A stretch of DNA of 36,191 nucleotides from Opitutales bacterium. Lineage in GTDB: Bacteria > Verrucomicrobiota > Verrucomicrobiia > Opitutales > JABSRG01. The notes under the pieces are model-generated. The model saw only the letters and a program-made list of their open reading frames with translations, ran no database searches and was not told the origin of the DNA. Where the stretch lies: assembly GCA_028280845.1 (NCBI GenBank), contig JANQKZ010000050.1, positions 1 through 36,191 on the forward strand. Reading direction: 5' to 3'. The position numbers and the translations under genes were made by a program. The stretch's first letter is position 1. Each line of letters starts with the position of its first letter. Shown here one piece after another: positions 1 to 21,409 of the stretch.

Positions 1-3000
1 CGCTTCCGGTTCGATTGAGTTTACCGCCGAGGCCGATATCACCACAGGTGGAACGGGCACTATTGATCTGCAGGCCACCACGGGATCCATCACTCTGGCC
101 ACGGATGCTGATCAGTCCACGGGTTCCGGTGATATTCGCATGCTGGCCCAGATCGATATTACCCTCGGAGGACAGGTGACCACCACCGGTTCTGTCAGCT
201 TGACGGCAAATACCGGGTCCATCCTGGACGGTGATACAGATGGCGGTCTGGATGTGAATGCCACTGCGCTCCGTCTCAATGCTGCCATTGGTGCTGGCCA
301 GCTCGGCGCTTCGGTCAATCCCATTGAAACCAGTGTGGCCACCGTGAGTGCACGGGCTACCAGCGGCGGAATTGCGATTCTGGAGACCAATGGGCTTACC
401 ATTGGTGACACTACGGTTTCGATTAACCGCGTAGCGGGAGATGCGACTGTGTCCTCGGTGACCGACGTCACGCAAAGTGATGTCATGACGACGTCTGGTG
501 GGGGTTCTATCGTAATCCGCCTGACCGCGGGTGACTTGACCCTGAATGACGGAACCGCAGCCGATGACAATATCACGGTGAGTGCTAACGGCAGTGGCAA
601 CATCCTGCTCGAAACGATTGCGGGCTCCATTACCTCCAACGAAGACATCCTGAGTGGAAGTGGAAATATTACCCTGTTGGCGAACGTTTCTATCACCTTC
701 ACGGCCGAGGCCGATATCACTACCAGCCTGACCGGTTCGATTGACCTGCAGGCCACCACCGGCTCCATTACCCTGGCCACGGATGCCGATCAAACCACCG
801 GTTCGGCAGATGTGAGAATGTTAGCTGGAGTCGATATCACTCTTGGAGGTTTGATTACCACCACGGGTTCGGTAAGTCTCACCGCCGGTGCTGGATCGAT
901 CCTGGATGGGGACACCGACGCAGGGTTAGACATCCTTGCTTCCGCGCTCCGCCTGGATGCGGCTATCGGTGCAGGTCAGCTGGGCGGCTCGGTCAATCCC
1001 ATTGAGACGAGCATTACTACCCTGAGTGGCCGCGCCACGAGCGGAGGTATCAATATCCTGGAAGCCAACGGCCTGACCGTTGATGACACCTCGGCCACAA
1101 TCAACCGAGTGGGTAACGATGCTACGACCTCCGGAGTTACCGATGCTACCCAGAGCGATGTGATTACGACCTCCGGCAACGGATCGATTGTCATTCGCCT
1201 GACCGCGGGAGACCTGACCCTGAATGACGGAACCGCCGCTGATGACAACATCACGGTGAGTGCGAATGGCATGGGTAATGTCCTGCTGGAAACCCTGTCC
1301 GGTTCCATCACTGCGAATGAGGATGTCCTCAGCGGAAGTGGAAACATCACCGTTTTGGCGTCCAATAGCATTGAATTCACAGCCGAGGCTGACATTACGA
1401 CGAGTTTGACTGGAACCATTGATCTGCAGGCCACGACGGGGTCGATCACCCTGGCTACTGATGCCGACCAGACCACCGGCTCTGGCGATATTCGCATGCT
1501 GGCTCAAGTCAGTATTACCCTTGGTGGTTTAATCACTACGACAGGTAATGTCAGCCTGACTGCGACTACGGGCTCCATTATCGATGGTGATGTCGACGGA
1601 ACTTTAGATATTTCCGCTGGCGGATTGCGTTTAGTTGCCGGCTCCGGGGTTGGCTCCTTGACGGATAGTAATCCTTTAGAAACCTCGGTCACGACTCTCA
1701 GCGCTTCCTCCGGTGCACAAGGGATCAATATCCTCGAGAGCGACACCTTGATTATAGGAACGGTATCCGTAACGGTGAATCGGGTAGGAGTGGATGCAGC
1801 CACCAGCTCCGTGGCAGATTTCGCGCTTTCCGGCCTGGCTACGGCCAACGCCGGTTCTATCAGCCTGGTGGTGACAACGGGCGATCTGACGCTTGGAGAC
1901 GAGACTACCATTAGCGCGGACACTAGCGGCACCATTACCATCGATGCGGTCGCTGGGTCTATCTCCATAGGGCTTGATTCCGGCATCACCAGTGGAACTG
2001 GCCAAATAGACATCATGGCGGGTATGGATCTTACCTTCGGTGAGGGAAGCAGTGTGACGACCGGTGGCCCGGGCAGCATGCAACTCCAAGCTGAGAATGG
2101 GTTTATTACCTTTGCCCAGAGTTCTACCTTGTCAGCAGGGACTGGTGAGATTCTGGTTCAATCTTCGACCGACCTGACCCTGGGTGGTCTGATCAGTTCC
2201 TCCAGCACGGTGGTGCTATCCGCGGCAACTGGCTCTATTCTGGATGGAGACAATGACGGTGCGGTGGATGTCGTGGCCTCTGGTTTAAGTCTGTTTGCCG
2301 GAACCAGTATCGGAACCCTTGGAACTGGAGCTAATGCCATTGAAACCGCAGTGGATACACTGGCTGCCACTGCAGGAGCTGGAGGTATCAACATCCTTGA
2401 AAATGCAGGACTGGTCATCGGCGAACTACCGGCGGTTCTCGGGGGAGTTGCTCAGAATGGCCTCACGACTACCGGTGGTGGATCCATTGTCGTTCAGGTA
2501 ACCACGGGTGATTTGGTTCTCGATCCTATGGGATCCGTCATTTCCGACGGAGCGGGTAATATTCACCTCCAGTCTATAGCCGGTTCCTTTACTTCGAACG
2601 CTGATGTAAACGGTGGAACTGGTCATGTTTCGATCGTCGCGGGCACCAGCCTCAACTTCAATGCGGACGTGATGACTTCCGGCAGCGGAACCATCGATCT
2701 GGAAGCTATTGCGGGCGATCTCACCTTGGGTGAAGGCGCGGATCAAGTCGCGGGTTCCGGGGATGTGCGACTGAAGTCCAGTGCAAATATTCAATTCGGG
2801 GGGTCGGTAATGACCTCTGGCACGGTCTGGATCGTTGCTCCGAATGGAGCAGTGACTGCACTGGAGCCAGCTACGGGAGTCACCGTCGTCTCCAGTGGTC
2901 TCCTTGTTGATGTTCTGGCCTTTGGATCCCTGAATTCGCACATCCAAACTGCAGCCCAAACGCTTGCCGGTACCGTTTCCACCGGCGGTCTTTTCATCAA

Positions 3001-4744
3001 TGATACGGGCGCCCTCTCGATTACCTCGGTTTCTGCAGTGATTGAGCAGGTAACCGGAGATGCAACAAGCACAACCTCCAGCAGTGCGGTAGAAGGCCTG
3101 ACGGTTCTGAATGGGGACACTCGGATCACGACTGCCAATGACCTTGTGATCGGAACCCTGTCATCCGGTGGAACCACAAACCTGACTTCCCGTTTCGGTG
3201 CAATTCTAGGCGATGCGAACAGTGGAAATTCGATCACCTCGGGCGCAGCCTTGGCCCTCACCGCGTCACGAGGGGTAGGTTCATTCGCCGCCGGAGCCCT
3301 CAATATTGTTGCTCCCAGTCTCCTTGTTTCGAACAACAGCTATGGTTCCGTTAACCTGAACCTGACTGGCTCCACACAAATCGATAGCCTCGTCAGTCTC
3401 ACCAATAGCAACCTTTCGATCAATCACACTTCTGGCGATCTTACCTTGGCCGGCCCGGTCCAAACCGACTTTGGGCGCACTGAGATCCGGACCACGGGTA
3501 ACCTGAGCCTTGCCGGTGCCGAGATTCGCAGCCCGTTGGGAACCCGCTTGGTGGCGGATTCCATTACGGGAGTGGATGCCTTTATCCTCTCCAACATGGG
3601 CGATGTTGTTATTCGGACGCAAGGTGACGTCAGCTTGGACGCCGACAGCCTGATTCAAGCGTCTAACGGTTCTGTGCGGATTGGCAGTGGTGGAGACCTC
3701 ACCCCGGGCAATATCATCGCAGGAAATCGCATCGACCTGCGGTCCGGCGGAAATGTCACCAATGCCGGAGCAGACCTTCAATCTGCGGCCGTCCGAATTT
3801 ATGCCGAAAATGGCGCTATTGGTCAAAGTGGTAGCCCAGTCATCGTTATCACAGATCAGATTGATCTCTTTGCTTCCGGTAACATCTATATTGCCGACGA
3901 CGATGGGTTCTCCTTCGGTCGCTCCGGAGTGGAAGCCGGAAACAACCAGCCTGGAGCGGTGGTCGAGTTCGGATTCATCGGGGGTGAATTGGGATCTGTT
4001 CTGGGCGATGTTGTCTTCACCGGTCAGGGCACCTATATCCTGAATGCTGAAGAAATCATCATCCTCAGTAGTCCGATCGTTTCTGAGCAGGCCAGTATCA
4101 CTTTGATAACCGACGTCCTGGCAGACAGCACGGACGATGAAACAGCGGTCCTTGTCTTCCCCAATGGTAATATTCAGATCATTGCTGAGTTCGGAATCGG
4201 AACCGAGGGAGATGGAGATATCGATGTGATTGCCGACACCATTAGTGCGACGACCGAGCTTGGCGGCATTTACCTGCATGTCCTGGAGCAGGGGGTCACC
4301 GTGACCAACGCGGGACTCCTGGTTAACGGGGGTAATGGAAGCATCAGCCTGGTAGTCAGTGATGGAGATCTGGAAGTGCTTGGACCTGTTACGGTCGAAG
4401 GGACGGGGTCGATGGATATCCAAGTGGTTAACGGTAGCTTTACCATGGGGCTCAGCTCCCGCCTGGCGACCCAAGCCGGGGCAATGAACGTGACGGTTTC
4501 TGAAGACTTTAACGTGGCCCAATTGGTGACCGCGGGAGGAGCTATCCGGGTTGAAAGTTTGAATGGTGCGGTTGCAACCTTGGAAGGATTCAATCAACCC
4601 AACTTTGTTTCCACCACTACCCCGGAAATTTTCGTAGAGACGACAGCTGCATTTAGCGTCGACTCAGACGAGGTCCTGGTGAATGGCCAACGATTTTTGC
4701 GGAACGTGGGAGATACGACCATCATCATCCTCCTCGCTTTCTAG
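1..4744 (+). CDS. Giant repeat-rich adhesin / filamentous-haemagglutinin-like protein (5' end outside window)
   Basis: The frame is open from the left edge (first full codon at 2) to TAG at 4742-4744, about 1580 codons, so the N-terminus is missing. The protein is almost entirely Ser/Thr/Gly/Asp/Ile-rich short beta-strand repeats with recurring phrases such as GSILDGDTD, AGDLTLNDG and TGSITLATDADQ. This composition is typical of right-handed beta-helix passengers of autotransporter or FHA-like surface adhesins. The first part consists of 226-residue tandem units; beyond about residue 750 the units degenerate into non-identical strand repeats. No beta-barrel or sorting domain is visible at the C-terminus, which ends in a hydrophobic run (TTIIILLAF). 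The next gene starts 5 bp downstream, and a stand-alone barrel lies two genes on, so the three probably form one surface-export locus. Adhesin function is inferred from architecture only. Confidence 0.85.
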   Translation, partial: ASGSIEFTAEADITTGGTGTIDLQATTGSITLATDADQSTGSGDIRMLAQIDITLGGQVTTTGSVSLTANTGSILDGDTDGGLDVNATALRLNAAIGAGQLGASVNPIETSVATVSARATSGGIAILETNGLTIGDTTVSINRVAGDATVSSVTDVTQSDVMTTSGGGSIVIRLTAGDLTLNDGTAADDNITVSANGSGNILLETIAGSITSNEDILSGSGNITLLANVSITFTAEADITTSLTGSIDLQATTGSITLATDADQTTGSADVRMLAGVDITLGGLITTTGSVSLTAGAGSILDGDTDAGLDILASALRLDAAIGAGQLGGSVNPIETSITTLSGRATSGGINILEANGLTVDDTSATINRVGNDATTSGVTDATQSDVITTSGNGSIVIRLTAGDLTLNDGTAADDNITVSANGMGNVLLETLSGSITANEDVLSGSGNITVLASNSIEFTAEADITTSLTGTIDLQATTGSITLATDADQTTGSGDIRMLAQVSITLGGLITTTGNVSLTATTGSIIDGDVDGTLDISAGGLRLVAGSGVGSLTDSNPLETSVTTLSASSGAQGINILESDTLIIGTVSVTVNRVGVDAATSSVADFALSGLATANAGSISLVVTTGDLTLGDETTISADTSGTITIDAVAGSISIGLDSGITSGTGQIDIMAGMDLTFGEGSSVTTGGPGSMQLQAENGFITFAQSSTLSAGTGEILVQSSTDLTLGGLISSSSTVVLSAATGSILDGDNDGAVDVVASGLSLFAGTSIGTLGTGANAIETAVDTLAATAGAGGINILENAGLVIGELPAVLGGVAQNGLTTTGGGSIVVQVTTGDLVLDPMGSVISDGAGNIHLQSIAGSFTSNADVNGGTGHVSIVAGTSLNFNADVMTSGSGTIDLEAIAGDLTLGEGADQVAGSGDVRLKSSANIQFGGSVMTSGTVWIVAPNGAVTALEPATGVTVVSSGLLVDVLAFGSLNSHIQTAAQTLAGTVSTGGLFINDTGALSITSVSAVIEQVTGDATSTTSSSAVEGLTVLNGDTRITTANDLVIGTLSSGGTTNLTSRFGAILGDANSGNSITSGAALALTASRGVGSFAAGALNIVAPSLLVSNNSYGSVNLNLTGSTQIDSLVSLTNSNLSINHTSGDLTLAGPVQTDFGRTEIRTTGNLSLAGAEIRSPLGTRLVADSITGVDAFILSNMGDVVIRTQGDVSLDADSLIQASNGSVRIGSGGDLTPGNIIAGNRIDLRSGGNVTNAGADLQSAAVRIYAENGAIGQSGSPVIVITDQIDLFASGNIYIADDDGFSFGRSGVEAGNNQPGAVVEFGFIGGELGSVLGDVVFTGQGTYILNAEEIIILSSPIVSEQASITLITDVLADSTDDETAVLVFPNGNIQIIAEFGIGTEGDGDIDVIADTISATTELGGIYLHVLEQGVTVTNAGLLVNGGNGSISLVVSDGDLEVLGPVTVEGTGSMDIQVVNGSFTMGLSSRLATQAGAMNVTVSEDFNVAQLVTAGGAIRVESLNGAVATLEGFNQPNFVSTTTPEIFVETTAAFSVDSDEVLVNGQRFLRNVGDTTIIILLAF
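194..2209 (+). repeat. Tandem 678-bp in-frame repeats within the giant adhesin gene
   Basis: Equivalent codons (the V of SVSLT) recur at 194, 872 and 1550, exactly 678 bp (226 codons) apart, and again at 2210 (660 bp on). The window's first bases match the end of a further upstream unit. Copies starting at 194 and 872 are very similar (conserved GSILDGD, LRLxAAIGAGQLG, NPIETS, GTAADDNITVSANG). The copy at 1550 is diverged and shortened, and the one at 2210 more so. The gradient suggests recent duplication or homogenisation on the 5' side. Confidence 0.9.
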
Positions 4745-5975: not shown

Positions 5976-6992
5976 ATGAAATTCTATCTCAGCTGCCTAA
6001 TTTGCCTGGCTTTGGTAATACCCACTTTTTTAGCTGCACAGAACGCAGGGGATATCGGGAGCTACACCTCTACCGTTTTCGTCGAACGCAGCCAGATCGA
6101 TAGCTTAAGTAGCTTTGCCGGTCTGGGACTCGCCTCAGGCCAATCATTTGATGTCGGGTTTGGTTATCACAGTGTAAGCCTGGACGGGGAGTCCGGCCGC
6201 CTTTACGAAGCCGATATTAAGAATACAGGTGGAATGCTGGGCTACTTTCACCAGTGGGATCGTGTGTCTGCGGGACTCCTGGCCTCTTTTGCCACCAATA
6301 AAATTGAGGCCGGTCCTTCGGCCGATAACAACAATTCCTTTTCTACCGATATTGATGGAAATGGCTTCCAGGTAGCCGCTGCCGCAGCGAAGGATTGGGA
6401 TAACTGGTCCTTGAATGGGATGATCGGGATCGGCAATCGATCTTACGACGGGCTCCGGCAATTTGTTCCTCCGTCACCCAATCCGGCATTACCGAAGTCA
6501 TCTACCCTCGACACCCAGAGTTTCTTCTTTCGGGCAACCTTAGCCTATCATTTTCATACGGATTCCGATTGGACCTTTAAACCTTTTCTCACCGCCGGCT
6601 TTGAGTCTGTAGAAACCGACGCGTTCGAAGAAATTGACGTATCCGGCAATGCGGGGGACGAGGCCGATGTCGATTCATTTCAAAACGATGGAGCCATTGT
6701 GGAGGGGGGTGTAGCTATCCTTTATACCGGGAATGCCACCTTCAAGCCGGTCCTGATCGTGTCCTACTTCCAGAATCTGGGGAATAGTGAATTGGACCTC
6801 TCCTGGGAAAATCCTCCGTTGCCGGCACAGGCGACTCAGATTCCCAATCCGGGTCAAAGCCTGTTTAAAGGTGACCTTGGAGCCACGGCCGATTTCGGAA
6901 ACAACTGGTCGCTTTCCGGGTTGTTCGGATACCAGAATGGCGACAGCTATTCCGGTTACGGTGTCAATGTGGTGGTAGACTACGCCTTCTGA
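5976..6992 (+). CDS. Outer-membrane autotransporter-type beta-barrel protein
   Basis: This 338-aa protein has a signal peptide (MKFYLSCLICLALVIPTFLA, then AQ). It is followed by alternating amphipathic strands (LAYHFHTDSDWTFKPFLTAGFE, WSLSGLFGYQN) and ends in VDYAF, the C-terminal aromatic typical of Bam-inserted barrels. Length and strand pattern fit the autotransporter beta-domain fold without a passenger. It is 50 bp downstream of the propeller gene and in the same direction. It could be the translocation or anchoring partner of the giant upstream protein, or an independent porin-like protein. Its 3' end overlaps the convergent AraC gene by 13 bp. Confidence 0.8.
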   Translation: MKFYLSCLICLALVIPTFLAAQNAGDIGSYTSTVFVERSQIDSLSSFAGLGLASGQSFDVGFGYHSVSLDGESGRLYEADIKNTGGMLGYFHQWDRVSAGLLASFATNKIEAGPSADNNNSFSTDIDGNGFQVAAAAAKDWDNWSLNGMIGIGNRSYDGLRQFVPPSPNPALPKSSTLDTQSFFFRATLAYHFHTDSDWTFKPFLTAGFESVETDAFEEIDVSGNAGDEADVDSFQNDGAIVEGGVAILYTGNATFKPVLIVSYFQNLGNSELDLSWENPPLPAQATQIPNPGQSLFKGDLGATADFGNNWSLSGLFGYQNGDSYSGYGVNVVVDYAF

Positions 6993-7825: not shown

Positions 7826-7896
7826 GTTGCCCGAATTGCAAATCAAGTATTCCCGGAATGCAAAGATAAAGGCAGGATCTTAAAGTATAATCCATC
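7826..7896. promoter_or_regulatory. Divergent control region: 22-bp-spaced direct repeats and TATAAT box
   Basis: Two near-identical 13-mers, CCCGAATTGCAAA (7830-7842) and CCCGGAATGCAAA (7852-7864), match at 11 of 13 positions and lie 22 bp apart, two helical turns. That is the arrangement expected for tandem AraC-family half-sites. A perfect TATAAT is at 7886-7891, with no recognisable -35 box. The proximal repeat ends where the -35 would be (about 7863-7868), as in class II activation. TATAAT ends only 5 bases before the ATG at 7897, so the + transcript may be leaderless. Confidence 0.6.
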
Positions 7897-9102
7897 ATGA
7901 TCTCAGACTTTTCTCCTTCAATTTCTTCCTCCGCCGGGGTTGGCATTGCCCAAACTGCGGATAAACTGCGCAACAGCAGCGCCGTCCTTCGGGCGATGAT
8001 CCGCATGGCCTCGGGTCGGTTCCTCTCGACCCCAAGATATGAGGACAAGTATCGCCTGGCCTACGACCTCTTTACCTCCACCGAGCATCATACGCTCTTT
8101 CGGCGACGTCTCGAGGAAATGCGTGGCGGCAAGGCCGATGCCAGTGTCCGTCCGGCCCTGAAGCAGTTTTTGGAGAGTGCGTTGCATGCCCCATCCGAAA
8201 CTGACTTTTTATCGGGCTTTTACTTTGGGGTGGTGGAGCCCTTAATCAAAGCGATTCAAGCAGATTTGAAAGTGTATGACCCCAGTGGAAATGCGAATGA
8301 AGTGCGGTTGAACCGCCGCCTGCTGGCTGATCTGGAGCCCATGATCCAGTGGGCTGAGCTGCGTGAACTCAAGCGAACGGATCCCTGGGTATCAGCGCTT
8401 CAAGAGCAGTTAGCCCACATCGGCGGGTTGCACGGGGATCAGCCCCAGGGCCCCGCAACTTTGGCCTTGAGCGACCTGGAAAAACGGTTCACGCGCCCCG
8501 GGACGATCCATTTCGATGAACGAATCGAAAAGAAAGAGCTGATGGCTTATGAGACCCGACTGGAACAGGATCCCCGGATAGCCACGATTGAGCAGTTCAA
8601 GGTCTTTTTTAACGAGTTTTATGCGGCAGCTCTCCTGGCCACGGTCATCTTCGATGCCAGCGAGGAAGCGTATCCCTGGGCCTTTTTTGAAGATTTTTGT
8701 CGACACTTCTGGGATGAAGCCCGGCATTCCGAGTTTGGGGCGATCCGGCTGAAGGAGCTGGGAACGGAGCCTGACCGGTGTAACCCAATTCTCTTTGAGC
8801 TCTCCCAGGATCTTCCCATCCTTCACCGTATCCTCTACCTGACCCGGGGCCTGGAAGCTTACTTTATGCCGCGCAAGTCCAAACGCTTCAAGGAGTATGA
8901 AGAAAATGGAGATCTCCGCAGCCAGCTATTCGCTGACCAGGATTGGTCGGATGAACAGAATCATATAAAATATGGAGCGAGGTGGTCCGACTACTTGCTG
9001 GAAGAGGATAACCGGGATTGGAAAGAGATTATTGATGAAGTGAAAGACCACCTTTCCCGCAAAACCGGCAAAACCGTGACCGATATTTCTGCTCCCTTCT
9101 AA
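7897..9102 (+). CDS. Di-iron ferritin-like superfamily protein (DUF455/oxygenase-like)
   Basis: This 401-aa soluble protein has no signal peptide. The C-terminal half shows a canonical four-helix di-iron ligand pattern: E240 (FFNEFYAAALLA), E274-x-x-H277 (DEARHSEF), E320 (GLEAYFMP) and E353-x-x-H356 (DEQNHIKYG). The N-terminal 200 residues are helical and unassigned. The ligand set fits ferritin-like oxygenases, oxidases or DUF455-type proteins rather than storage ferritin. It is 18 bp upstream of a fucose-isomerase-like gene and divergent from an AraC regulator, suggesting oxidation or oxygen-dependent modification of a sugar-related compound. The substrate is unknown. No Shine-Dalgarno is visible; a TATAAT lies immediately before the ATG. 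Confidence 0.75.
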   Translation: MISDFSPSISSSAGVGIAQTADKLRNSSAVLRAMIRMASGRFLSTPRYEDKYRLAYDLFTSTEHHTLFRRRLEEMRGGKADASVRPALKQFLESALHAPSETDFLSGFYFGVVEPLIKAIQADLKVYDPSGNANEVRLNRRLLADLEPMIQWAELRELKRTDPWVSALQEQLAHIGGLHGDQPQGPATLALSDLEKRFTRPGTIHFDERIEKKELMAYETRLEQDPRIATIEQFKVFFNEFYAAALLATVIFDASEEAYPWAFFEDFCRHFWDEARHSEFGAIRLKELGTEPDRCNPILFELSQDLPILHRILYLTRGLEAYFMPRKSKRFKEYEENGDLRSQLFADQDWSDEQNHIKYGARWSDYLLEEDNRDWKEIIDEVKDHLSRKTGKTVTDISAPF

Positions 9103-9120
9103 CCCCCTAACTAGATTATT

Positions 9121-10461
9121 ATGAGTGGTGCGCTAAACAATCGATGGCCCCTGGATATCGTTCTGATGAGTAGCCCGGTCTACTGGCCTGACGAATCCCA
9201 GTTTCAACAATTTGCCCAAAGCCTCCAGCAGGCTATCCTCGAGGGAGCTGAGCTGGATCCTGCCGATCTGCGGTTTCACCTATCCTATGGGGAATTGCCT
9301 GAGGACCAGCGTGAGGCCTTGGCCGCTAAATCGACGCTGGTTTTCCTACCGATGAGTGGGGGGTGTCAGCCCGCCATGATTGAACTGGCCGGCGGACATG
9401 CGCATATCGGTCTCTTCAATGCTTACCTGCCTGAATCCGGTCTGCCCATGAGCCTTTCTCATGAGATTATGCACAAGAATGGGCATCCTGCCTGTACGGA
9501 TACCTTTGCCTATTTGCGCCAGGCGGGCGAAGCAGTGAGCTGGCTGTTCAATCTCGAAGATCTGGCTGCCTTTGCCCGGGCATCCCAGGCTGTTTCCCGG
9601 TTAAAACAGGCTCGCCTTTTAAAAATCGGGGAAACCGAGCCCTGGGTCATCAACAGCGAGCGAGACCCCCAGGCCTACCAGGATCGCCTGGGTATAGAGG
9701 TGATTCCAATTGACCGCGAAGTCCTTTATGAGCGTTGCCGCCAGGTTGACGATGCGGATGTGGAGCCCCTCATTGAGCGCTGGCGTTCCGGTGCCCAACA
9801 TCTGGTTGAGGTCGACTCCACCGATATCCGGGAAGCCTGCCGGGTGATACGGGGAATGGAGCACCTCCTCGGGGAACACGAAGCAGATGGGTTGTCGATG
9901 GCTTGCTTTGCCATGATCGGCGACATCAACACGACCAGTTGCCTGGCTTTAAGCTTTTTGAATGATTCCGCTGACTTTATCGGGGCTTGTGAAGGAGATC
10001 TCGAGGCCGGGGTGACCCTGTTTTTATTAAAAGCCCTGGGAGCTGATTTTATCTGGATCGGAAACCCCATTATTCATGCAGATGATTCCCTTGAGCTGGT
10101 TCACTGCACGGCCCCGACCTGCGGATGTGGCATGAACCTGAACTATTCGCTCATGCGACACCATGAGAGTGGGCGTGGAGTGGCCCCCGAGGTGCAGCTT
10201 CCAAAGGGGCGTCCCGTCAGTCTGGCGCGCATCGGGGGAGGCCTGGAGCATATCAAGTTCTACCGGGGTCGCTCAGAAGCCGTGGGGGATAAGCTGCCCG
10301 CCTGTCATACCCAGGTGCATGTGAAGCTGGAAGATGCGACCAGCCAGGACGTACTGGCCAATCTCCTCGGAACCCATCTGGTGTTGACCTATGGGGATTA
10401 CGCTAAGGAACTGGCCTACGTTTCCCGATTCCTCGGCTTGAAGGCTAATACGGAATTTTGA
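9121..10461 (+). CDS. L-fucose/L-arabinose isomerase-fold family protein
   Basis: This is a 446-aa cytoplasmic protein. The C-terminal half carries features of the FucI/AraA-type isomerase fold: ACEGDLEAGVTLFLLKALG (E291, D293), the LVHCTAP segment (H328) and GTHLVLTYGD near residue 419. A CTAPTCGCG cluster (C329, C334, C336) is an unusual addition that could bind metal. The N-terminal part contains a Rossmann-like LVFLPMSGG and HAHIGLFNAYLPES. The family includes many uncharacterised sugar isomerase-like proteins, so the reaction (ketose/aldose isomerisation or a related chemistry) is uncertain. It sits in a tight two-gene unit with the preceding di-iron protein. No Shine-Dalgarno is apparent. 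Confidence 0.75.
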   Translation: MSGALNNRWPLDIVLMSSPVYWPDESQFQQFAQSLQQAILEGAELDPADLRFHLSYGELPEDQREALAAKSTLVFLPMSGGCQPAMIELAGGHAHIGLFNAYLPESGLPMSLSHEIMHKNGHPACTDTFAYLRQAGEAVSWLFNLEDLAAFARASQAVSRLKQARLLKIGETEPWVINSERDPQAYQDRLGIEVIPIDREVLYERCRQVDDADVEPLIERWRSGAQHLVEVDSTDIREACRVIRGMEHLLGEHEADGLSMACFAMIGDINTTSCLALSFLNDSADFIGACEGDLEAGVTLFLLKALGADFIWIGNPIIHADDSLELVHCTAPTCGCGMNLNYSLMRHHESGRGVAPEVQLPKGRPVSLARIGGGLEHIKFYRGRSEAVGDKLPACHTQVHVKLEDATSQDVLANLLGTHLVLTYGDYAKELAYVSRFLGLKANTEF

Positions 10462-10516: not shown

Positions 10517-11392
10517 ATGCCAGATATCCCCGATCCTCCTTCCCGTCGTCGTTTCATGAAAAGCTTGGCGGGTCTTTCAGCTGTCAGCGCGGCCGGAACC
10601 GGACTCGGGGTGGCGGCTCCTTCCACAAGCTCGCTGCCGGATAGCCGGCAGCGGGAACGGGTCAATGCACTCCTCCTCAGCGCCACCACGGTTCCGGGAC
10701 AGCCTTCCCTTTCCCAGGCCTGGGAGGCCCTGCCTGAGCTCTACGGAGAGAACAAGCAGGTGCTGCTGATCAATTTTGCCAGTTTGCCCCCCGACCGGGA
10801 TGCTTATGCCAAGCGGATGCAGCGGGAGTTTGATAAGATGGGGGATGGCTTCACGATATCCTCCCTTCACCATGCGAAGCCAAGGGATGCAGCCCGGGTG
10901 GTCCGTGAGGCCGAGGCCTTCTTCATCAGTGGCGGAAACACCTTCCTGCTTTTACGGGAGCTCTACGATCGCTTTGTCGTAGACCTGATTCGTGAGCGGG
11001 TCCTGATGGGAGTGCCCTATGCCGGGTCAAGTGCCGGGTCCAACGTGGCCGGAACGGTGATAGGCTGCACCAATGATTTTCCCCTGGTTGATGTGCCGAC
11101 GCGCCGTTCCCTGGGAATTCTACCGGGTGTGTTCAATCCACATCATCCGGATCCCGAATTGGATCCCGGGAATTTCGAGCACCGCCAATGGAAGATCAGC
11201 CATTACGCGAGTCACCAACGCCACGAGCCAGTGTTTGGGATTACCGATCCGGGAATGATTCGAATACAGGGAAATCGGTTCACGCTGCTGGGGAAGGCAG
11301 CATGGGGCTACCTTCGTCAAGGGGATCAGCAGGTAGATCTGTTTTCGGAAGATAACCGCGACCTGACTGCAGCGATGGAGCAGGTGGGTTAA
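10517..11392 (+). CDS. Exported peptidase S51 (dipeptidase E-like)
   Basis: This is a protein of about 291 aa. It begins with a twin-arginine-type signal (SRRRFMKSLAGLSAVSAAGT), followed by a peptidase S51 domain. The family glycine loop is ISGGNTF, the catalytic serine lies in AGSSAGSN, and the catalytic histidine is probably in NPHHPD, as in Salmonella PepE and cyanophycinase. S51 enzymes cleave alpha-aspartyl dipeptides or related beta-linked substrates. An extracytoplasmic location is inferred from the leader and differs from cytoplasmic PepE. Start choice is uncertain: TTGs at 10505 and 10511 are in frame upstream, and a GGGAG lies about 10 nt before the first. It is 55 bp downstream of the isomerase-like gene, so it may be part of that operon. 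Confidence 0.8.
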   Translation: MPDIPDPPSRRRFMKSLAGLSAVSAAGTGLGVAAPSTSSLPDSRQRERVNALLLSATTVPGQPSLSQAWEALPELYGENKQVLLINFASLPPDRDAYAKRMQREFDKMGDGFTISSLHHAKPRDAARVVREAEAFFISGGNTFLLLRELYDRFVVDLIRERVLMGVPYAGSSAGSNVAGTVIGCTNDFPLVDVPTRRSLGILPGVFNPHHPDPELDPGNFEHRQWKISHYASHQRHEPVFGITDPGMIRIQGNRFTLLGKAAWGYLRQGDQQVDLFSEDNRDLTAAMEQVG

Positions 11393-11462
11393 AGCGACGC
11401 GCCCTGTCGGGGTTCCGGATTCAGGTAGAGCTGTCCCCTCGGGCCAGACGCAATGGTCTTGG

Positions 11463-12899
11463 TCAGGGCTCGCCGGAGAACCGGAACGCGTAGAGGTCTC
11501 CGTCTTTCAGGTGGAACTTCAGGCGAACCACTTGCCCGTTGTATTGAGAGAGGTCAGGGCTGCCCTTCCAGGAAACCTGCTGGTCGATGAAATTGCCGAG
11601 CATAGGCTCACAGTCCTTCGTGGAAAATCCGGGAAGCGGATTTCCGGCTTTGTCCGTAAGTTCTACCCGCAATTCGCCTGCGGCGGAGGTCTCCAGGTTC
11701 ACTTCCAGGCGATTGCCCGTGAAGGTGAACGGTTTGGTCGTCAGGGTTCCTCCGTTATAGTCGGCATGTGCACTGACAAAACCGTCCAGGCGAAGGCTGT
11801 ATCGCGCAATGTGCGCGGTGGGTTGGGCATAGTGCGACATACGGTAGATGTAGAGTTCGCGCCCATTCAACGCAGGCACAAGGCCCAGGGCGGGGGTATT
11901 GTCGCGGGCGATCCAATCTCTGGCGGTATCCCCGGGACGGATAAAAGCCTCCATGAAGGTTCGGTCGTAGCTGGCCCCTCCACGGGTGCTCATGAAGATC
12001 GAGTCGCTGGAGGTGCTGCGGTAATTGTCATAGGCCACGAGGTTTTTGGCGTCCTCCCCGGTATACCCCGATTTTTCGGGGAAGAAGCGTTTGGCCAACG
12101 CGATGTAGATGTGAGGTGCCCGAAAATAAGGCTGGGTGCCATTGGTGTAGAGCTGTTCTTGCGGGGTGTCCCCATAGGTCATCACGCCCGGGTTGGTCCA
12201 GTTGAGGAAATCTTTGCTGGTGGTGCGGCTGATGGTGCGATAACCCGTAAATCCTTCCCCTGTCCAGGTCCTGAAATAACAGACATACTGCTGCTCGGCC
12301 TCAGACCAGAAGGCGACATTGTGTGAATCGAACATGCCCTGGGTGAAAATGTAGTCTTCCTGGATCAGCTCCCAGTTTAAACCATCGGCCGAGACAAAAC
12401 CATAAAGCCCCTTGGTCTCATCGCCGGCGATCGCTTTGAAGCGTTGCTCGGGCGGGGTGTCGGGGTTAGTGTCCAGAAAGGGAGAAAAGTTACGGGAATA
12501 GACATCTTTTTCGGCCAAAACAATATTGTTGGCCGATGACCCGTGGTGTTCAAAGCGTCCGAGCTGGGGCTTCACCCAGTGGATGCCGTCGACCGACTCC
12601 GCGTATGCAGTGATGGCGCGGCGATCTTCTATCTCCTGTCCCGGCATACCCCGGTAAAACATCATGTAGCGGTGCCCATCCAGAATGACGGTGGGATACG
12701 CGGAGAACGGGCCTTCCCATGGCTGGTCAAAGGACAGGGCGACGCCTTCGTAGCGCGGGGCATGGAGACGCAGGTCGAGTTGGTCCAGAGACTCTATTAA
12801 GGTGTGATCCACAAAGAGTTCGCGGCGGTCCTCGAGGTGTATGGGAGCCCCATGAAGGAGGAGGGGGATAAAGAGCAGGGGAAGGAGATACGTTTTCAT
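11463..12899 (-). CDS. Secreted GH32/GH43-like five-bladed propeller glycosidase
   Basis: This 478-aa protein has a signal peptide (MKTYLLPLLFIPLLLHGAP). Blades typical of the GH32/GH43/GH68 superfamily follow: LFVDHTLIES near the start, GPFSAYPTVILDGHRYMMFYRG, AYAESVDGIHW, FVSADGLNWELI and QGMFDSHNVAFWSEAEQQYVCYF. The C-terminus (about 390-478) is a beta-sandwich ending LKFHLKDGDLYAFRF, as in many Planctomycetes and Verrucomicrobia exported proteins. Candidate acidic catalytic residues are D31, in VDHTL, and D in GMFDSHN, but an assignment needs structure. It is the last gene of a four-gene minus-strand operon (34 bp after the sialidase-like gene). Substrate unknown. Confidence 0.75.
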   Translation of the reverse strand: MKTYLLPLLFIPLLLHGAPIHLEDRRELFVDHTLIESLDQLDLRLHAPRYEGVALSFDQPWEGPFSAYPTVILDGHRYMMFYRGMPGQEIEDRRAITAYAESVDGIHWVKPQLGRFEHHGSSANNIVLAEKDVYSRNFSPFLDTNPDTPPEQRFKAIAGDETKGLYGFVSADGLNWELIQEDYIFTQGMFDSHNVAFWSEAEQQYVCYFRTWTGEGFTGYRTISRTTSKDFLNWTNPGVMTYGDTPQEQLYTNGTQPYFRAPHIYIALAKRFFPEKSGYTGEDAKNLVAYDNYRSTSSDSIFMSTRGGASYDRTFMEAFIRPGDTARDWIARDNTPALGLVPALNGRELYIYRMSHYAQPTAHIARYSLRLDGFVSAHADYNGGTLTTKPFTFTGNRLEVNLETSAAGELRVELTDKAGNPLPGFSTKDCEPMLGNFIDQQVSWKGSPDLSQYNGQVVRLKFHLKDGDLYAFRFSGEP

Positions 12900-12933
12900 T
12901 TGAGTGGTTGTAGAGCTGTCTGGTTGAAGCGGT

Positions 12934-14100
12934 TCATTTCAGTCTCCAAATGGTTCCATGAATCCCGGGTTTCACCCGGTTTGGATCCGGGGGTTGCATC
13001 CGGGGATTGGCATCGGCCGGGACATTGGGCTGGTAATACACGGTGAGGATGGTTCCGGGTTCCAGTTCGAGGGAAACCGGGTAGCCGAGGTCCTTATTCG
13101 GGGCGTCATCGCGAATGATGATCTCATCCTCCTTGTCCCAGGTGATTCCGTCTACGCTTACCGCAACCCGTTGTCCGAAAGGCGAACGGCGGTGCCCGTA
13201 GGTCACCAGGACCCGCCCGTCGGCAAGCTGAAGGAGGTGGGGAGGGAATCCCCACAACGTAGTCTTGAAGGGGGCGGACCAGGTCCGTCCGTAATCATCG
13301 GAGTACGAACCATAGGCATAGGAAAGAGGGGATTTATCGTCATATGGCTTAGCGGTTGCCCGGATCATCATGAGAACCCGCCCGGACTTCAGTTGTATGA
13401 CATGGGGTTCCCCGAAGCGCAGGGCATCCGGAAGCGGACTCAGGATCTCGGCGGTTTTTTCAAACGTTCCCATCGGATTAGACCCGACATAAACCCCGGC
13501 ACGATCCGGGTGATTCCGGTAGGAGGCGACGAGGATTTCTCCATTATCCATATGGACCCCTCCGTGGATGGAATCCTGTCCGGGGACCGGGTGCGACCAG
13601 GTGTATCCTCCATCTTCCGATACGAGATGCCATTCGCCTTCCCATCGGGCTGCCTCCCGGTACTCGCGGGTGTCCACATGCTGAATCCAACGATTCAGGG
13701 TGTCCTGTTCATAGGCCAGGGGAGGCAGCTTGGCGTAGGCGGTTGGGGTCCACCGGGTAGTGCGGACGTGCAGGATGAGCCGACCATCTTCGAGCAGGGT
13801 GAGACCGGACTCCCGGTCATCCAGGGGAGAGTCATACACGACGACCGGGGTTTCCCAGGTTTGACCATTGTCTTTGGAACGGGAGAGGAGGATTTGTCCG
13901 TCCGGGCCGAGGTGTTCTTCGGTCCGGGTGTAGCATACAATGATGTCGCCATCTGCAGTACGAGCGATGGCCGGCCAGGCACAATATTCATCGCGCATTT
14001 CGTAGATAGTCAGGTGTTGAAGGATTTCGGCCTCGGCTCCGAGGAGCCGACCGGGAATGACCAGGGACAGGATGAAGAAACTATAGAAGAAGCGGTTCAT
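12934..14100 (-). CDS. Secreted sialidase-like (BNR/Asp-box) propeller protein
   Basis: This 388-aa protein has a signal peptide (MNRFFYSFFILSLVIPGRLL, then GAEAE). At least three Asp boxes are visible: SRSKDNGQTWETP, VSEDGGYTWSHP and SYSDDYGRTWSAP, with a fourth degenerate one (SVDGITWDKE). This indicates a six-bladed sialidase-type propeller. The classical F/Y-R-I-P motif is replaced by YCAWPAI, so true exo-sialidase activity is doubtful. Similar proteins in marine bacteria are annotated exo-alpha-sialidase or uncharacterised BNR proteins. It lies 10 bp after the symporter gene in an operon of glycan genes, which supports a polysaccharide or oligosaccharide substrate. Confidence 0.8.
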   Translation of the reverse strand: MNRFFYSFFILSLVIPGRLLGAEAEILQHLTIYEMRDEYCAWPAIARTADGDIIVCYTRTEEHLGPDGQILLSRSKDNGQTWETPVVVYDSPLDDRESGLTLLEDGRLILHVRTTRWTPTAYAKLPPLAYEQDTLNRWIQHVDTREYREAARWEGEWHLVSEDGGYTWSHPVPGQDSIHGGVHMDNGEILVASYRNHPDRAGVYVGSNPMGTFEKTAEILSPLPDALRFGEPHVIQLKSGRVLMMIRATAKPYDDKSPLSYAYGSYSDDYGRTWSAPFKTTLWGFPPHLLQLADGRVLVTYGHRRSPFGQRVAVSVDGITWDKEDEIIIRDDAPNKDLGYPVSLELEPGTILTVYYQPNVPADANPRMQPPDPNRVKPGIHGTIWRLK

Positions 14101-14110
14101 GGGATAAGAC

Positions 14111-15478
14111 TCAATTTTCTATGTGGTGGCGTTGGTCGAGCTCCGCCTTGATTTCGCGCAGCTGACCTTCGGTGAGTGGATAAAAGAAAAAGGCAATCAG
14201 GCCTACCACGCAGGCGATGGATGGCAGCACACTCATCACCAGGCGAATCCCGACGAGCGCTTCCTCGGTCTGATCTACATTGGGAACATAACCGTAGAGG
14301 GTCAGGGTCCACCCCGTGATGGCTCCACCAATCCCGCCGCCGAACTTCAGGGCGAGGGTGCCGGCGGAATAAACAAGCCCGGTGGCCCGGCGCTGGTTTT
14401 TCCATTCGGAGTAGTCGGCCGCATCGGCCAGCATGGCGAAGAACAACACGACAATCGGGCCGGTGGCGAACTCGGTGACAAACGACAATCCGAAGATCCA
14501 TGCAATATCATCAGGCGTGGCCAGGTAGAGCGGTGCACTGGTCAGGCCGGCTACGATAAAGCTGGCATTCATGATGGTGCGCTTTCCGAAGCGGGCGACC
14601 AGGACCCCGGTGATGGCCGCTCCAATCATACTGCCCAAGGTTCCAAAGACGAGAAATCCTGCGGATAGCGGGACATTGCCCACAAAGTAGGTGAAATAGT
14701 AAAGGGTGGCTCCCTGTTTCAGGGTGGTCAGGGTGACAAAGGACAAGCCCACACAGAAGAGGATCAGCCACGGGCGGTTGCGGAACAGGTCTTTCATGTC
14801 CCGCTTCAAGCCGACTTTCCAATCCGTCTTTGGCGGAGCTACAGGACGGACGCGTTCCCTGGTCCCGGCGAAGGTGATGAGGAAGAGCATGATACTGGTC
14901 GCCGCAAACAGCATCATGGTTCGCTGGTAGCCCGCCACGTCGTCACCTTGCCCGAAGGTTTCTACCAGGTAGCTGTTCAAGCCCTGGGTGATGATGCCAC
15001 CGAGGAATGCCCCGAAAAACCGGAAGGAGGTCAGGGTGGTCCGCTCGTTGGGATCGGAGGACATGACCCCCGTCAGGGCAGAGTAGGGGACATTGTTGGC
15101 CGTGAAGGCGAGGAGAAGGAGATTGTAGGTCAGGTAGGCGTAGATGAGTTTCCCGGTTTGTCCAAAATCAGGGGTCGTAAAAGTGAGCACCGTCAGGACT
15201 CCAAAGGGGACGGCGGTCCACAGTATCCAGGGCCGGAATTTGCCCCACCGGGAATTCCCCCGATCAGCCAGGAGTCCGATAATGAAATCAGTAATCCCGT
15301 CAGCGTAGCGACTGACCAGCAGGAGCGTGCCTACAGCTGCGGCGGAAATGCCAAAGACATCGGTATAAAAGATTGGCAGGAAGACCATGAGGGTACGCCA
15401 GGTCAGATTGGCGGCACAGTCTCCCAGGCCAAAAGCGACCTTTTCTTTGAAGGGAATATGTTGGGAGTCGGGGGGCAA
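14111..15478 (-). CDS. GPH-family (MFS) sodium/proton:sugar symporter
   Basis: This 455-aa protein has about 12 hydrophobic segments. It shows the glycoside-pentoside-hexuronide (GPH) family start KEKVAFGLGDCAANLTW, the cytoplasmic loop LADRGNSRWGKFRPW (family D-R-x-x-x-x-x-G-x-x-R-P), and VPYSALTGVMSSDPNERT. It imports mono- or oligosaccharides into the cytoplasm, here probably products of the adjacent glycosidases. The only early start is TTG (15476-15478); no in-frame ATG precedes MPPDSQHIPFKEK. It is 22 bp downstream of the GH1 gene and 10 bp upstream of the sialidase-like gene, forming one operon. Confidence 0.92.
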   Translation of the reverse strand: MPPDSQHIPFKEKVAFGLGDCAANLTWRTLMVFLPIFYTDVFGISAAAVGTLLLVSRYADGITDFIIGLLADRGNSRWGKFRPWILWTAVPFGVLTVLTFTTPDFGQTGKLIYAYLTYNLLLLAFTANNVPYSALTGVMSSDPNERTTLTSFRFFGAFLGGIITQGLNSYLVETFGQGDDVAGYQRTMMLFAATSIMLFLITFAGTRERVRPVAPPKTDWKVGLKRDMKDLFRNRPWLILFCVGLSFVTLTTLKQGATLYYFTYFVGNVPLSAGFLVFGTLGSMIGAAITGVLVARFGKRTIMNASFIVAGLTSAPLYLATPDDIAWIFGLSFVTEFATGPIVVLFFAMLADAADYSEWKNQRRATGLVYSAGTLALKFGGGIGGAITGWTLTLYGYVPNVDQTEEALVGIRLVMSVLPSIACVVGLIAFFFYPLTEGQLREIKAELDQRHHIEN

Positions 15479-15500
15479 GGCTATGATGGGAAAGTAGAGG

Positions 15501-17064
<1,564 letters not shown>

Positions 17065-19116
17065 ATGAATCGAAGAGAGGCATTAAAAATAGGCGGGCTG
17101 GCCCTGGGTGGCGCTGCTGTGAGTCGTGCAAACCCGTATGGTGTAGCGATGCCTCCCCCCAATACGCGACGCCTATTTTTTGAACTGAGGGACCTTCCCC
17201 GTATTCGTGCCAATGCGCGAACGCTCTTGTTAGGGCAAACCTTCCGCGAGTGGCAAAGCACGGGTTTGGACACCATGGCGAAGGGGTGGCATGACTTTCG
17301 TGAGAGTGGAGACATTGTCTTTGACCTTCGCCAGGTCTGGCTCGGTTTTACCCAATCCACGACCGTTCAGTTAATCGAACCGACCCGCAAACGGGAAACG
17401 GCCTTGCTGGATACCATTCGGGAAGTGATCGAACTGGATAAATGGGATTATTTTCTCGACGGTGATGAGGTGCTGGGAATCATGCGTTCCTCAATGGCCA
17501 TTTCCCGCTTGCTATTCGCCCGGGAGGTCCTTGGTGATGCGATTGATCCGGAGCTGGACGCCCGGCTGCTGGATGCCATTGCAGAGAAAGGCATTGTCCC
17601 CTGTCACCGGACGGTTTACGATATGGATCATCCCGACCAGGTTGAGGGGTGGGCCTTCGACCCGAAGCAACGTCCCTACCATGAGATCGATATGCGGCGT
17701 TGGCCGCTGATCCTGGGCAGCAATAACCTGAGGGCGATCCCCACTTTCGCTATGGGTCTCGGCGCCCTGGCCCTGGAAGGTCGCGATGCTCGCGCCGCGG
17801 AATGGTTGGAGCTGGCGGAGTCCAGCTCGCGGAAGGTGTTTGGTCTCTTCTCCCGGGATGGCAGCTTTTTTGAGGGCTTGTCCTACGCAGGCTATACGCT
17901 GCGAACCCTGCTGCAATTCTGCAATGCCCACCTCAAGCAGAAGGGCCATATCGATTGGACACGGGAAATGAATTGGGAGGGCTTCCTTGAGTTCGTCGCC
18001 ACGATGCAAGCAGGGAAATATCCGGATGGTACTCCTGATATTGTAAACTTCAGTGATGCCCGGACCTCGCTTTATCCCTGTGTCAGTTCCTGGATAGAAG
18101 AGCACACCGGTAATCCGGCAGCCCAATATGTGGCAGAGAAGTATTCAGTTCCCGGATACTTTATGGACTATCTCTGGTTTAGGCCAAATCGACCGATGCG
18201 CAACCTTCCTGTTTCGTTGGAAAATCACCTGAATGATCTGGACTGGGTGCTGTGCCGATCGGGATGGGGAAAAGCGGACGCGGTCCTTGCCTTTCGCAGT
18301 GGGTATCCCGCCAACCATGAGCACGCAGACCGGAACAGTTTCTTTTTTAAGATCTACGAGGAGCGCCTGCTCAATGATCATTTCGGGGCCGCCTACGACC
18401 GCTTGCACCCGGGGTGGAGCCTGCGCCTGACAAAGGGCCATAACGTGGTCCTGGTCGATGGCAAGGGCCAGCAGTACCACGAGGGTGAGGAAGGCGTGAA
18501 TGAAGGGCTCTCCATTGCCCGGGTCGTTCGCTTTGAGGACGAGGGGCAAAAAGTCTGGTGGTCGAGTGACGCCGCCCACGGCTATCGCCTGGTTAATCCC
18601 AATGTCCGGCGCGTCATGCGGACAGTGGCGTTCGCTAAACCGGATGTGATTGTCGTCTGGGATGAAGTGGATCTGGAGCGGGACCCGGCAGAGGTGGAAG
18701 TGCGTTACTACCCGGATAACCGGGACGGTGAGGCGGGCCTCAGCCTCGACGGGGGCACGTTTCGAATTCAACGCCCAAAGGCAGAACTCTTCGGGCTCGC
18801 TGCCGGCAGAGCGGGCGTTGGTTTGGAGGTGGACCTGCTGGACCCCACAGAGGATCCACCCCCTGCTTCGGCCGGGACCAGTAAACAGGCCGGGGATCAT
18901 CTATGGGAGTTTGGAGAATATCCCTACGTTGGGGTCGCTTCAGCGGGGAAGGCGATGCAGCATTCCATTGTGACCGTATTAGTGGCCCGGCCGGGGACCG
19001 AAAACCTGCGGCCGGCGGCAACGGTGGAGGCGACCCCCCAGGGATGGTATTTTCGGGTCGCCGATGTAGACGGTTACCTGGTGCGGGATGGGGCCGATTC
19101 GTCTGTGCTGTGGTAG
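17065..19116 (+). CDS. Exported heparinase II/III family protein (copy 1)
   Basis: This 683-aa protein starts MNRREALKIGGLALGGAAVS, a twin-arginine-like leader. An alpha-helical toroid domain of about 370 residues follows (WDYFLDGDEVLGIMRSSMAI, MGLGALALEGRD). The C-terminal beta-sheet region has the hallmark N417-H-E-H-A-D-R-N motif and HPGWSLRLTKGHNVVLVDG. These are typical of heparinase II/III-like polysaccharide lyases and homologues acting on uronate-containing glycans. It is a paralogue of the protein encoded at 21410-23449, with matching positions for HPGWSLRLTKGH and NHEHADRN. Substrate (glycosaminoglycan, alginate-like or sulfated algal glycan) cannot be read from sequence. It is convergent with the nag operon across a hairpin. 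Confidence 0.85.
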   Translation: MNRREALKIGGLALGGAAVSRANPYGVAMPPPNTRRLFFELRDLPRIRANARTLLLGQTFREWQSTGLDTMAKGWHDFRESGDIVFDLRQVWLGFTQSTTVQLIEPTRKRETALLDTIREVIELDKWDYFLDGDEVLGIMRSSMAISRLLFAREVLGDAIDPELDARLLDAIAEKGIVPCHRTVYDMDHPDQVEGWAFDPKQRPYHEIDMRRWPLILGSNNLRAIPTFAMGLGALALEGRDARAAEWLELAESSSRKVFGLFSRDGSFFEGLSYAGYTLRTLLQFCNAHLKQKGHIDWTREMNWEGFLEFVATMQAGKYPDGTPDIVNFSDARTSLYPCVSSWIEEHTGNPAAQYVAEKYSVPGYFMDYLWFRPNRPMRNLPVSLENHLNDLDWVLCRSGWGKADAVLAFRSGYPANHEHADRNSFFFKIYEERLLNDHFGAAYDRLHPGWSLRLTKGHNVVLVDGKGQQYHEGEEGVNEGLSIARVVRFEDEGQKVWWSSDAAHGYRLVNPNVRRVMRTVAFAKPDVIVVWDEVDLERDPAEVEVRYYPDNRDGEAGLSLDGGTFRIQRPKAELFGLAAGRAGVGLEVDLLDPTEDPPPASAGTSKQAGDHLWEFGEYPYVGVASAGKAMQHSIVTVLVARPGTENLRPAATVEATPQGWYFRVADVDGYLVRDGADSSVLW

Positions 19117-19181
19117 GGGTAGGAAATTGGGTGACTGGAAGGGAAACCGCTTACCTTTTTCGGGCTCAGCCAGTCTACCCC
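19116..19181. terminator. Bulged stem between convergent genes
   Basis: GGGGTA (19116-19121) and GACTGG (19133-19138) pair with CCAGTC (19170-19175) and TACCCC (19176-19181), giving a two-part stem with a one-sided bulge. It lies between the stop of the + strand heparinase-like gene and the end of the minus-strand nag operon, with a TTTTT inside the loop. A bidirectional termination role is inferred and weak. Confidence 0.35.
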
Positions 19182-19194
19182 GGATTGCCCCTGA

Positions 19195-19392
19195 TTAAAA
19201 CGCAAAGCCGGGAAAGAGGCGCCGGCCCGTTTCCAGGTAGTAGGCTTCCACCCGGGTAGCATCGAGTCCATCCATGGCATTGGCCAGGTGGTGGGTGGTG
19301 GTTTGCATGACCTCCGTTTCGGCCTGGCAGCCAGCGCAAAGGACGCTGCAGCCAAACAGAAAGTTCAGTAGAATGGTGGGGCGAGGCTTCAT
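19195..19392 (-). CDS. Small lipoprotein linked to nagA
   Basis: This 65-aa ORF starts 4 bp after the nagA stop. The N-terminus KPRPTILLNFLFGCSVLC is a lipoprotein signal with a lipobox-like CAGC at residues 19-22, so the mature peptide would begin CQAETEVMQ. The mature part, about 44 residues, is hydrophilic and contains TTTHHLANAMDGLDATRVEAYYLETGRR. No family is recognised. The tight spacing argues for co-expression with nagB and nagA. The alternative is a spurious ORF in GC-rich DNA, but the lipobox and position make a real gene more likely. Confidence 0.55.
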   Translation of the reverse strand: MKPRPTILLNFLFGCSVLCAGCQAETEVMQTTTHHLANAMDGLDATRVEAYYLETGRRLFPGFAF

Positions 19393-19396
19393 GAAA

Positions 19397-20539
19397 TTAG
19401 CGCCGATACACGGTTCGGCCATGAAGCAGGGTTTGTTGCACGTCCAGGCGACCGTCTTCGAGGGTGAAGAGCACCAGGTTGGCGGGCTGCCCGGCTTCGA
19501 TGGCTGAACACAGTTTATCGCCGCCCAGGTATTCCCCGGGTGACCGGGTGGCCGGGATGATGGATTCCTCCAGGGTGAGTCCGGTGATTTCCATAAAGTT
19601 GGATACCGCATCGGCCATGTTGAGGGAGGATCCCGCCATGTTTTTTCGGTCCGCTTGGACCACCTGACCGGATTCCAGCAGTTCTATGTCCTTTCCCAGA
19701 AAGGTGTAGGGACCGGGTTCGAGGCCTGCCACATAAACGGCATCGGTCACCAGTAGACAGCGATGGAGCCCCTTGACGCGGGTGATGATGCGGGTCAGCT
19801 CATCGGACAGGTGGAATCGATCACAGATGAGACCTGCGGCCAGGCCATCATTGTCGAGCTGGGCCCAGAAGGGGGCCTGGTGCCGATCCCAGAGCTGGGG
19901 GCACCCATTTCCCAAGTGAGTAGAGAGGGACGCCCCGGCAGCGGCCAGGCGGTGGACATCCTCAGGACTGCCGTCGGTGTGGCTCAGGGATACCCGGATC
20001 CCTGCGTCGACTGCCTGGCGCGTGAAGGCTTCGGCGCCGGGCCACTCCGGAGCCAGCGTGACGAGGCCGATCCGGCCATCGGCCTCAGCATTCATGATGG
20101 AAAACTCTTCCCAGTCGGGGTCTTTCATGAATTCCGGCCGGTGGGCGCCCGCCGAAGGACCGGGCGACATATAGGGCCCTTCCTGGTGAAAACAGGGCAC
20201 CGCCTGGTTGAATTCAGAACTCGTTTCGCAAGCTTTGCGCAGGACCCGAAACAGGTGGGTCTGCGCCTCGATGGTATTGGAAATCAGGGTGGGGCAGAAG
20301 GAGGTGCAGCCTTTCTCCCACAGCGCAGGCAGGATCGCCAGGCAGCGGTCCGGAGTGAGATCCGGATCGGAGAAATGGACCCCGGCGTACCCATTGAGCT
20401 GCGTGTCGATAAAGCCTGGAGACAGGTAGGGCAGGTCGGCCCTTTCCGGGAATGAGGCCTCCACGCCCTGGATTTTTCCCTCCGCAAGCGTGACTTCCGC
20501 GTATCCGCGACCGGGAATATTGGCTTCGATCCGCGTCAT
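19397..20539 (-). CDS. nagA: N-acetylglucosamine-6-phosphate deacetylase
   Basis: This 380-aa cytoplasmic amidohydrolase converts GlcNAc-6-P to GlcN-6-P and acetate. Motifs match E. coli-type NagA: PGFIDTQLNGYAG in place of an HxH site, metal-binding E120 (FHQEGPYMSP), H187 (SLSHTDG) and H208 (STHLGNG), and catalytic D266 (VTDAVY). Length matches the family. Its start overlaps the nagB stop by one base (TGATG), indicating translational coupling. It joins amino-sugar release outside the cell to central metabolism. Confidence 0.95.
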   Translation of the reverse strand: MTRIEANIPGRGYAEVTLAEGKIQGVEASFPERADLPYLSPGFIDTQLNGYAGVHFSDPDLTPDRCLAILPALWEKGCTSFCPTLISNTIEAQTHLFRVLRKACETSSEFNQAVPCFHQEGPYMSPGPSAGAHRPEFMKDPDWEEFSIMNAEADGRIGLVTLAPEWPGAEAFTRQAVDAGIRVSLSHTDGSPEDVHRLAAAGASLSTHLGNGCPQLWDRHQAPFWAQLDNDGLAAGLICDRFHLSDELTRIITRVKGLHRCLLVTDAVYVAGLEPGPYTFLGKDIELLESGQVVQADRKNMAGSSLNMADAVSNFMEITGLTLEESIIPATRSPGEYLGGDKLCSAIEAGQPANLVLFTLEDGRLDVQQTLLHGRTVYRR

Positions 20540-21321: not shown

Positions 21322-21409
21322 GGAGACAGTTGAACCGGCGACCGGGCGAAAGTCAGGGTTCTTCGGCTTTTACAATAAATTGGAGGGTGAATGGAGGACC
21401 GCTTAACCC

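Follow-up and report, generated by a model that had tools for sequence, protein, structure and literature searches.

Oxygen-dependent sugar catabolism has been described for the P450-catalysed O-demethylation of 6-O-methyl-galactose (PMC10033563) and for the monooxygenase and dioxygenase pathways of sulfoquinovose (SQ) breakdown, which employ flavin and 2OG enzymes (PMC13372026). These P450, flavin and 2OG routes contain O2-dependent steps of the kind proposed here, but neither a ferritin-like di-iron enzyme nor a FucI-fold partner, and the two together were not found in the literature searched.

The window analysed here, a 36,191-nucleotide stretch of contig JANQKZ010000050.1 from an Opitutales bacterium, contains a candidate combination of this kind. 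P0001 (7897..9102, + strand) encodes a tandem ferritin-like protein of 401 aa related to DUF455, and P0002 (9121..10461, + strand) encodes a divergent FucI/AraA/SftI-family protein of 446 aa; the two genes are co-oriented and separated by 18 bp, which agrees with the coordinates and spacing given in the original prediction. An AraC/XylS-type regulator, P0003 (6980..7846, - strand), is divergent from P0001 across a 50 bp gap, and its HTH_18 match (E=4.9e-26; 91.3 bits against a cut-off of 33.6) confirms the regulator that had been predicted beside the pair. An AraC gene occupies the equivalent position in six other P0001 loci, including one on a Spirochaetaceae contig.

We propose, with a probability of roughly 55%, that a P0001 di-iron oxidase and a repurposed P0002 function in one AraC-controlled carbohydrate route, a proposal based on the observed gene pair, ligand conservation, P0001 fold class, recurrence and shared neighbourhoods. 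P0001 would most likely be an oxygen-activating di-iron carboxylate oxidase/oxygenase of an uncharacterised DUF455-related family, probably acting on a carbohydrate-derived intermediate, and the AraC-controlled route would probably be a catabolic one that breaks down a glycan or glycoside of plant or algal type. P0002 would take part in it as a FucI-fold protein put to a new use, keeping one metal carboxylate and the active-site histidine. Since it is without the canonical catalytic and ligand glutamate, P0002 would probably handle an oxidised sugar, or catalyse a related metal-assisted enolisation, rather than serve as a textbook aldose-ketose isomerase. Iron binding, O2 use, the substrate class and the order of the reactions are the predicted elements of this scheme.

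Ligand set and fold class of P0001

The AlphaFold model of P0001 (13 homologues in the alignment; mean pLDDT 88) contained two successive helical bundles, at residues 17-155 and 226-368. The C-terminal bundle bears E240, E274xxH277, E320 and E353xxH356, with one ligand motif on each helix (240-253, continuing 226-238; 261-287; 308-337; 340-368), as in the bacterioferritin and toluene monooxygenase hydroxylase families, where E/ExxH/E/ExxH is likewise carried on four helices. All six ligand residues are kept in 26/26 relatives, including those of only ~25% identity and one Spirochaetaceae sequence, and they are also kept in a second Spirochaetaceae sequence (L050) that was aligned separately. 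The E, ExxH, E, ExxH pattern singled out in the original prediction was thus read correctly and is not a chance pattern, and the loss of ligands in homologues, which was specifically looked for, was never encountered among the relatives examined. As judged from the sequences, the ligand set is the signature of a putative ferritin-like di-iron carboxylate site, from which iron binding and O2 activation by P0001 would follow according to established knowledge of such ligands. When the N-terminal bundle (residues 17-155) was inspected by eye, no metal site was recognised, indicating that this bundle is apparently without one.

The Pfam search matched P0001 to DUF455 (PF04305) alone (E=1.9e-9; residues 239-387), with a score of 37.9 bits that passes the gathering cut-off of 34.3. 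P0001 differs from this family in covering only profile positions 73-224 and in adding a whole N-terminal helical bundle, and the distant relatives of P0001 match PF04305 too. No function for DUF455 or COG2833 was found in the literature searched; if P0001 were a sugar-acting di-iron oxygenase, it would provide a function for the DUF455-related family. In the structural comparison with VIA-align, the fold table was filled by the N-terminal bundle and the metal-bearing C-terminal bundle was barely compared. Dps and bacterioferritin structures aligned with the N-terminal bundle over ~140 residues (Z about 16, rmsd 2-3 Å, to be read with the caveat that applies to helical bundles), and 170 residues of toluene 4-monooxygenase hydroxylase chain B aligned with the same bundle (Z 15.6). 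Searches of the P0001 sequence against solved structures were insignificant or marginal (best E=0.0024), and no orthologues were found in the viral contigs searched. Assignment of P0001 to the R2-like ligand-binding oxidases (NF006200) was rejected, the score being 16.4 bits against a cut-off of 194.

The FucI-fold partner and its active site

In FucI and AraA, the glutamate of the 'CWPE' stretch is both a metal ligand and the catalytic acid/base. The predicted FucI-type relationship of P0002 was well supported: the protein matched the NCBIfam profiles for SftI (NF048012; E=4e-16, residues 152-443) and L-arabinose isomerase (E=5e-4), and in profile-profile comparison by hhalign it aligned over its full length with ordinary members of the L-fucose/L-arabinose isomerase family from the same order (99.5% probability, 413 columns). 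The canonical glutamate is nevertheless replaced by Met265 in each of the five P0002 orthologues whose sequence spans this position, as found with two alignment methods, and the stretch reads 'CF(A/S)MI' in these orthologues, whereas all ten ordinary relatives have Glu at this position or an equivalent Glu. On this alignment evidence, P0002 descends from the superfamily but lacks a defining feature of the isomerases, so that a classical aldose-ketose isomerase activity is doubtful and 'FucI-like chemistry' cannot be assumed. Nature thus provides, in P0002, an example of the sugar-isomerase fold from which the canonical catalytic glutamate has been lost. A role in sulfoquinovose degradation was rejected, given that the SftI score (58.8 bits) is far under the equivalog cut-off of 700 and that no gene of SQ breakdown (transaldolase, sulfolactaldehyde or other) was recognised beside P0002.

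Several other residues of the isomerase site are retained. E291 and D293 of the second carboxylate motif ('CEGD') are kept in all five orthologues covering them, H328 is present, and of the C-terminal 'HH' of isomerases the second histidine (H419) alone survives. Structure prediction for P0002 from a two-sequence alignment was unusable (pLDDT 38), and the active site was read from the sequence alignment. Compared with the FucI/AraA/SftI families, P0002 has an extra conserved C334 and C395-H396, with C395-H396 being characteristic of the P0002 group. The original prediction had pointed to an added cysteine cluster in P0002, and 'CTAPTCGCG' is indeed present at residues 329-337; however, C329 and C334 are matched in several ordinary relatives ('HCGAAPCS') and C336 is missing in the orthologue L062, so that 'added' is only partly right. 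An added Fe-S or Zn site at these cysteines was rejected on the same two observations.

The alternative that survives best, although we consider it unlikely, is that P0002 is an ordinary FucI/SftI-type metal isomerase with a shifted ligand, in which Asp/Glu268 stands in for Glu265, and that P0001 is no pathway oxidase but has an accessory role such as iron/manganese handling or oxygen protection. The retention of E291, D293, H328 and H419 is consistent with this, as is residue 268, which is Asp or Glu in 5/5 orthologues covering the position, and the relative L032 has the canonical Glu together with an Asp at the position of residue 268. Yet the exchange of Glu for Met in every covering orthologue, against its presence in every relative compared, argues against an ordinary isomerase, and P0001 is mostly found without P0002, which argues that it is not a dedicated P0002 accessory.

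Recurrence of the pair and the wider gene set

Among the 372 genomes surveyed across the order, P0001 orthologues occurred in eight, P0002 in six and both in four, against 0.13 genomes expected to contain both (P=1.3e-6, uncorrected for relatedness). The two genes are adjacent and co-oriented in three genomes, each of a different family (the window genome, G031 and G039), so the neighbourhood survey suggested with the original prediction did recover the pair elsewhere; the spacing is 22 bp in L036, and the genes overlap in L037. In L037 (G039), a gene judged by eye to be GH42-like comes after the pair on the same strand, together with a GH116 gene. G454 possesses both genes on separate contigs. 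A scan of GTDB genome contigs yielded 12 P0001 loci, with P0002 adjoining in one only, and P0002 occurs without a P0001 orthologue in two genomes, G169 and G215 (P0002 loci without P0001, L061 and L062). In G169, P0002 sits in a rhamnogalacturonan-type cluster with an alpha-L-arabinofuranosidase, a GH78-type rhamnosidase and a PcRGLX-like protein. The partnership is rare and optional, yet real, and neither gene needs the other. The P0002-bearing rows do not group together in the P0001 tree, and the pairing may go back to one gain with subsequent losses, or to transfer.

Neighbour clustering revealed recurring companions of P0001, including a TonB receptor, LacI, GFO/IDH oxidoreductases, SSF symporters, a MetE-like protein, GH88 and an MLE-type enolase-superfamily protein with KxK, DGNEQ, EQP, DES and KNCKG motifs. 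Two further companions, c3 and c9, are large proteins of about 770 and 810 aa, respectively, both conserved and exemplified by L046 (c3, 13676-15985, - strand, 770 aa; c9, 11171-13600, - strand, 810 aa). Profile searches of c3 and c9 against Pfam, NCBIfam and PDB gave no family match and nothing useful, and a GH116 assignment for c9 was discarded as not detectable; the two are probably new carbohydrate-active enzymes. Because they match no family, the glycan-route label rests on the GH42-like, GH116, GH88, SSF, TonB and GFO/IDH genes.

The gene c9 adjoins P0001 in L039, L046 and L048, where c3 lies within about 10 kb, and c3 is found within the same distance of P0001 in L049; in L062 (G215), P0002 adjoins c9 and c3 is divergent. 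In a 223-genome sample of the order, c3 occurred in 8/10 genomes with P0001 or P0002 and in 12 others (Fisher P=4e-8, uncorrected for relatedness). The window genome carries GFO/IDH, MetE-like, TonB receptor, c9, GFO/IDH and c3 genes on contig C43 (L091, 335-12069); unlike in L044, TonB and c9 have no P0001 gene between them here. P0001 and P0002 are both part of a larger, so far undescribed gene set for carbohydrate catabolism, which offers concrete testable enzymes in P0001, P0002, c3 and c9. The c3 gene of G031 (L098:6137-8452) is interrupted by an in-frame TAA, either through an error in sequencing or because the gene is broken.

In L095-L098, P0001-like proteins that are only distantly related (about 26% identity) are encoded directly after a PhyH-type Fe/2OG dioxygenase gene (for example, the pairs at L098:13873-16156 and L097:6922-9259). 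These pairs are situated a few kb away from c3, and those of L096-L098 also have an AraC gene next to them. Across these four lineages, the PhyH proteins are 71-77% identical and the P0001-like proteins 68-74% identical. No other observation argues as strongly for a role of the di-iron family in that route as this linkage to the c3 set despite deep divergence, and the distant AraC-PhyH-P0001-like units near c3 make oxygen-dependent carbohydrate chemistry reasonable, but unproven, for the P0001/P0002 set. The idea of oxygen-dependent sugar chemistry put forward in the original prediction is accordingly strengthened by the carbohydrate-catabolic context and by PhyH beside the distant relatives, whereas a strict form of it is weakened by the non-obligate pairing, the lost glutamate of P0002 and the partly ancestral Cys cluster. 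More tentatively, these genes could constitute an undescribed O2-dependent Opitutales-type route that combines a new class of tandem ferritin-like di-iron oxygenase (sometimes with PhyH) oxidising a sugar or glycoside, the rebuilt-site FucI-fold P0002 acting on the product, and c3 and c9 as new glycosidase-type enzymes, a possibility to which we give well under even odds. Should P0001 be a di-iron oxygenase of sugars, it would reveal a way into glycan breakdown that depends on oxygen and is absent from current enzyme catalogues.

The neighbourhoods also bear on a quite improbable alternative, in which P0001 is an oxidative O-demethylase of an O-methylated sugar (such as a methyl-hexose or 4-O-methylglucuronate) and MetE- or MtaA/UroD-like neighbours handle the methyl or C1 unit. 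MetE-like genes are indeed present at the P0001 loci L036, L039 and L041 and in the C43 set of the window genome, two Spirochaetaceae contigs have a UroD/MtaA-like gene of the methyltransferase family immediately behind P0001 (L050:612-2848 and L051:1654-3959, the latter with a divergent AraC gene), and an analogous chemistry is known from the use of porphyran, in which a P450 demethylates 6-O-methyl-galactose (PMC10033563). Nevertheless, the MetE and UroD folds are employed in many reactions, and a demethylase that works by oxidation would release formaldehyde, making a methyltransferase unneeded. Demethylation is less well supported than O2-dependent oxidation.

It is very unlikely that P0001 serves in ferritin-like iron storage or peroxide detoxification and occurs in sugar clusters by chance. 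Its fold matches are mainly to Dps and bacterioferritin, but these concern the N-terminal bundle, and the two-bundle architecture, the highly conserved C-terminal site, the AraC control and the recurrent association with c3, c9, PhyH and transport genes across distant lineages all argue against this reading. Least probable of all, an incidental adjacency of P0001 and P0002 with separate routes would fit the occurrence of either gene without the other, but not the co-oriented neighbours in three families, the excess of co-occurrence over expectation, or the independent linkage of each gene to c9 and c3.

Other features of the window

Downstream of the pair, P0004 (10505..11392, + strand) encodes a peptidase S51/PepE-like protein with a TAT-like N-terminus, which is a possible, weakly evidenced third gene of the unit. 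In L049, an S51 protein of a different subfamily is encoded immediately behind P0001, and in L046 it is encoded nearby. A TATAAT hexamer at window positions 7885-7890 ends ~6 bp upstream of the start codon of P0001, where a ribosome-binding site is not evident, and the P0001 transcript is possibly leaderless. The promoter and terminator scan performed no better than on shuffles, and the Rfam search of the window returned no RNA families.

Further along the window, at 17065-24847, two heparinase II/III-like genes are clustered with NagA-like, NagB-like and GlcNAc 2-epimerase-like genes, which suggests the use of an amino-sugar polymer next to the P0001-P0002 pair. Towards the other end, a very long repetitive ORF (1534 aa) occupies positions 140-4744, and an autotransporter beta-domain protein is encoded one gene on, at 5976-6992.
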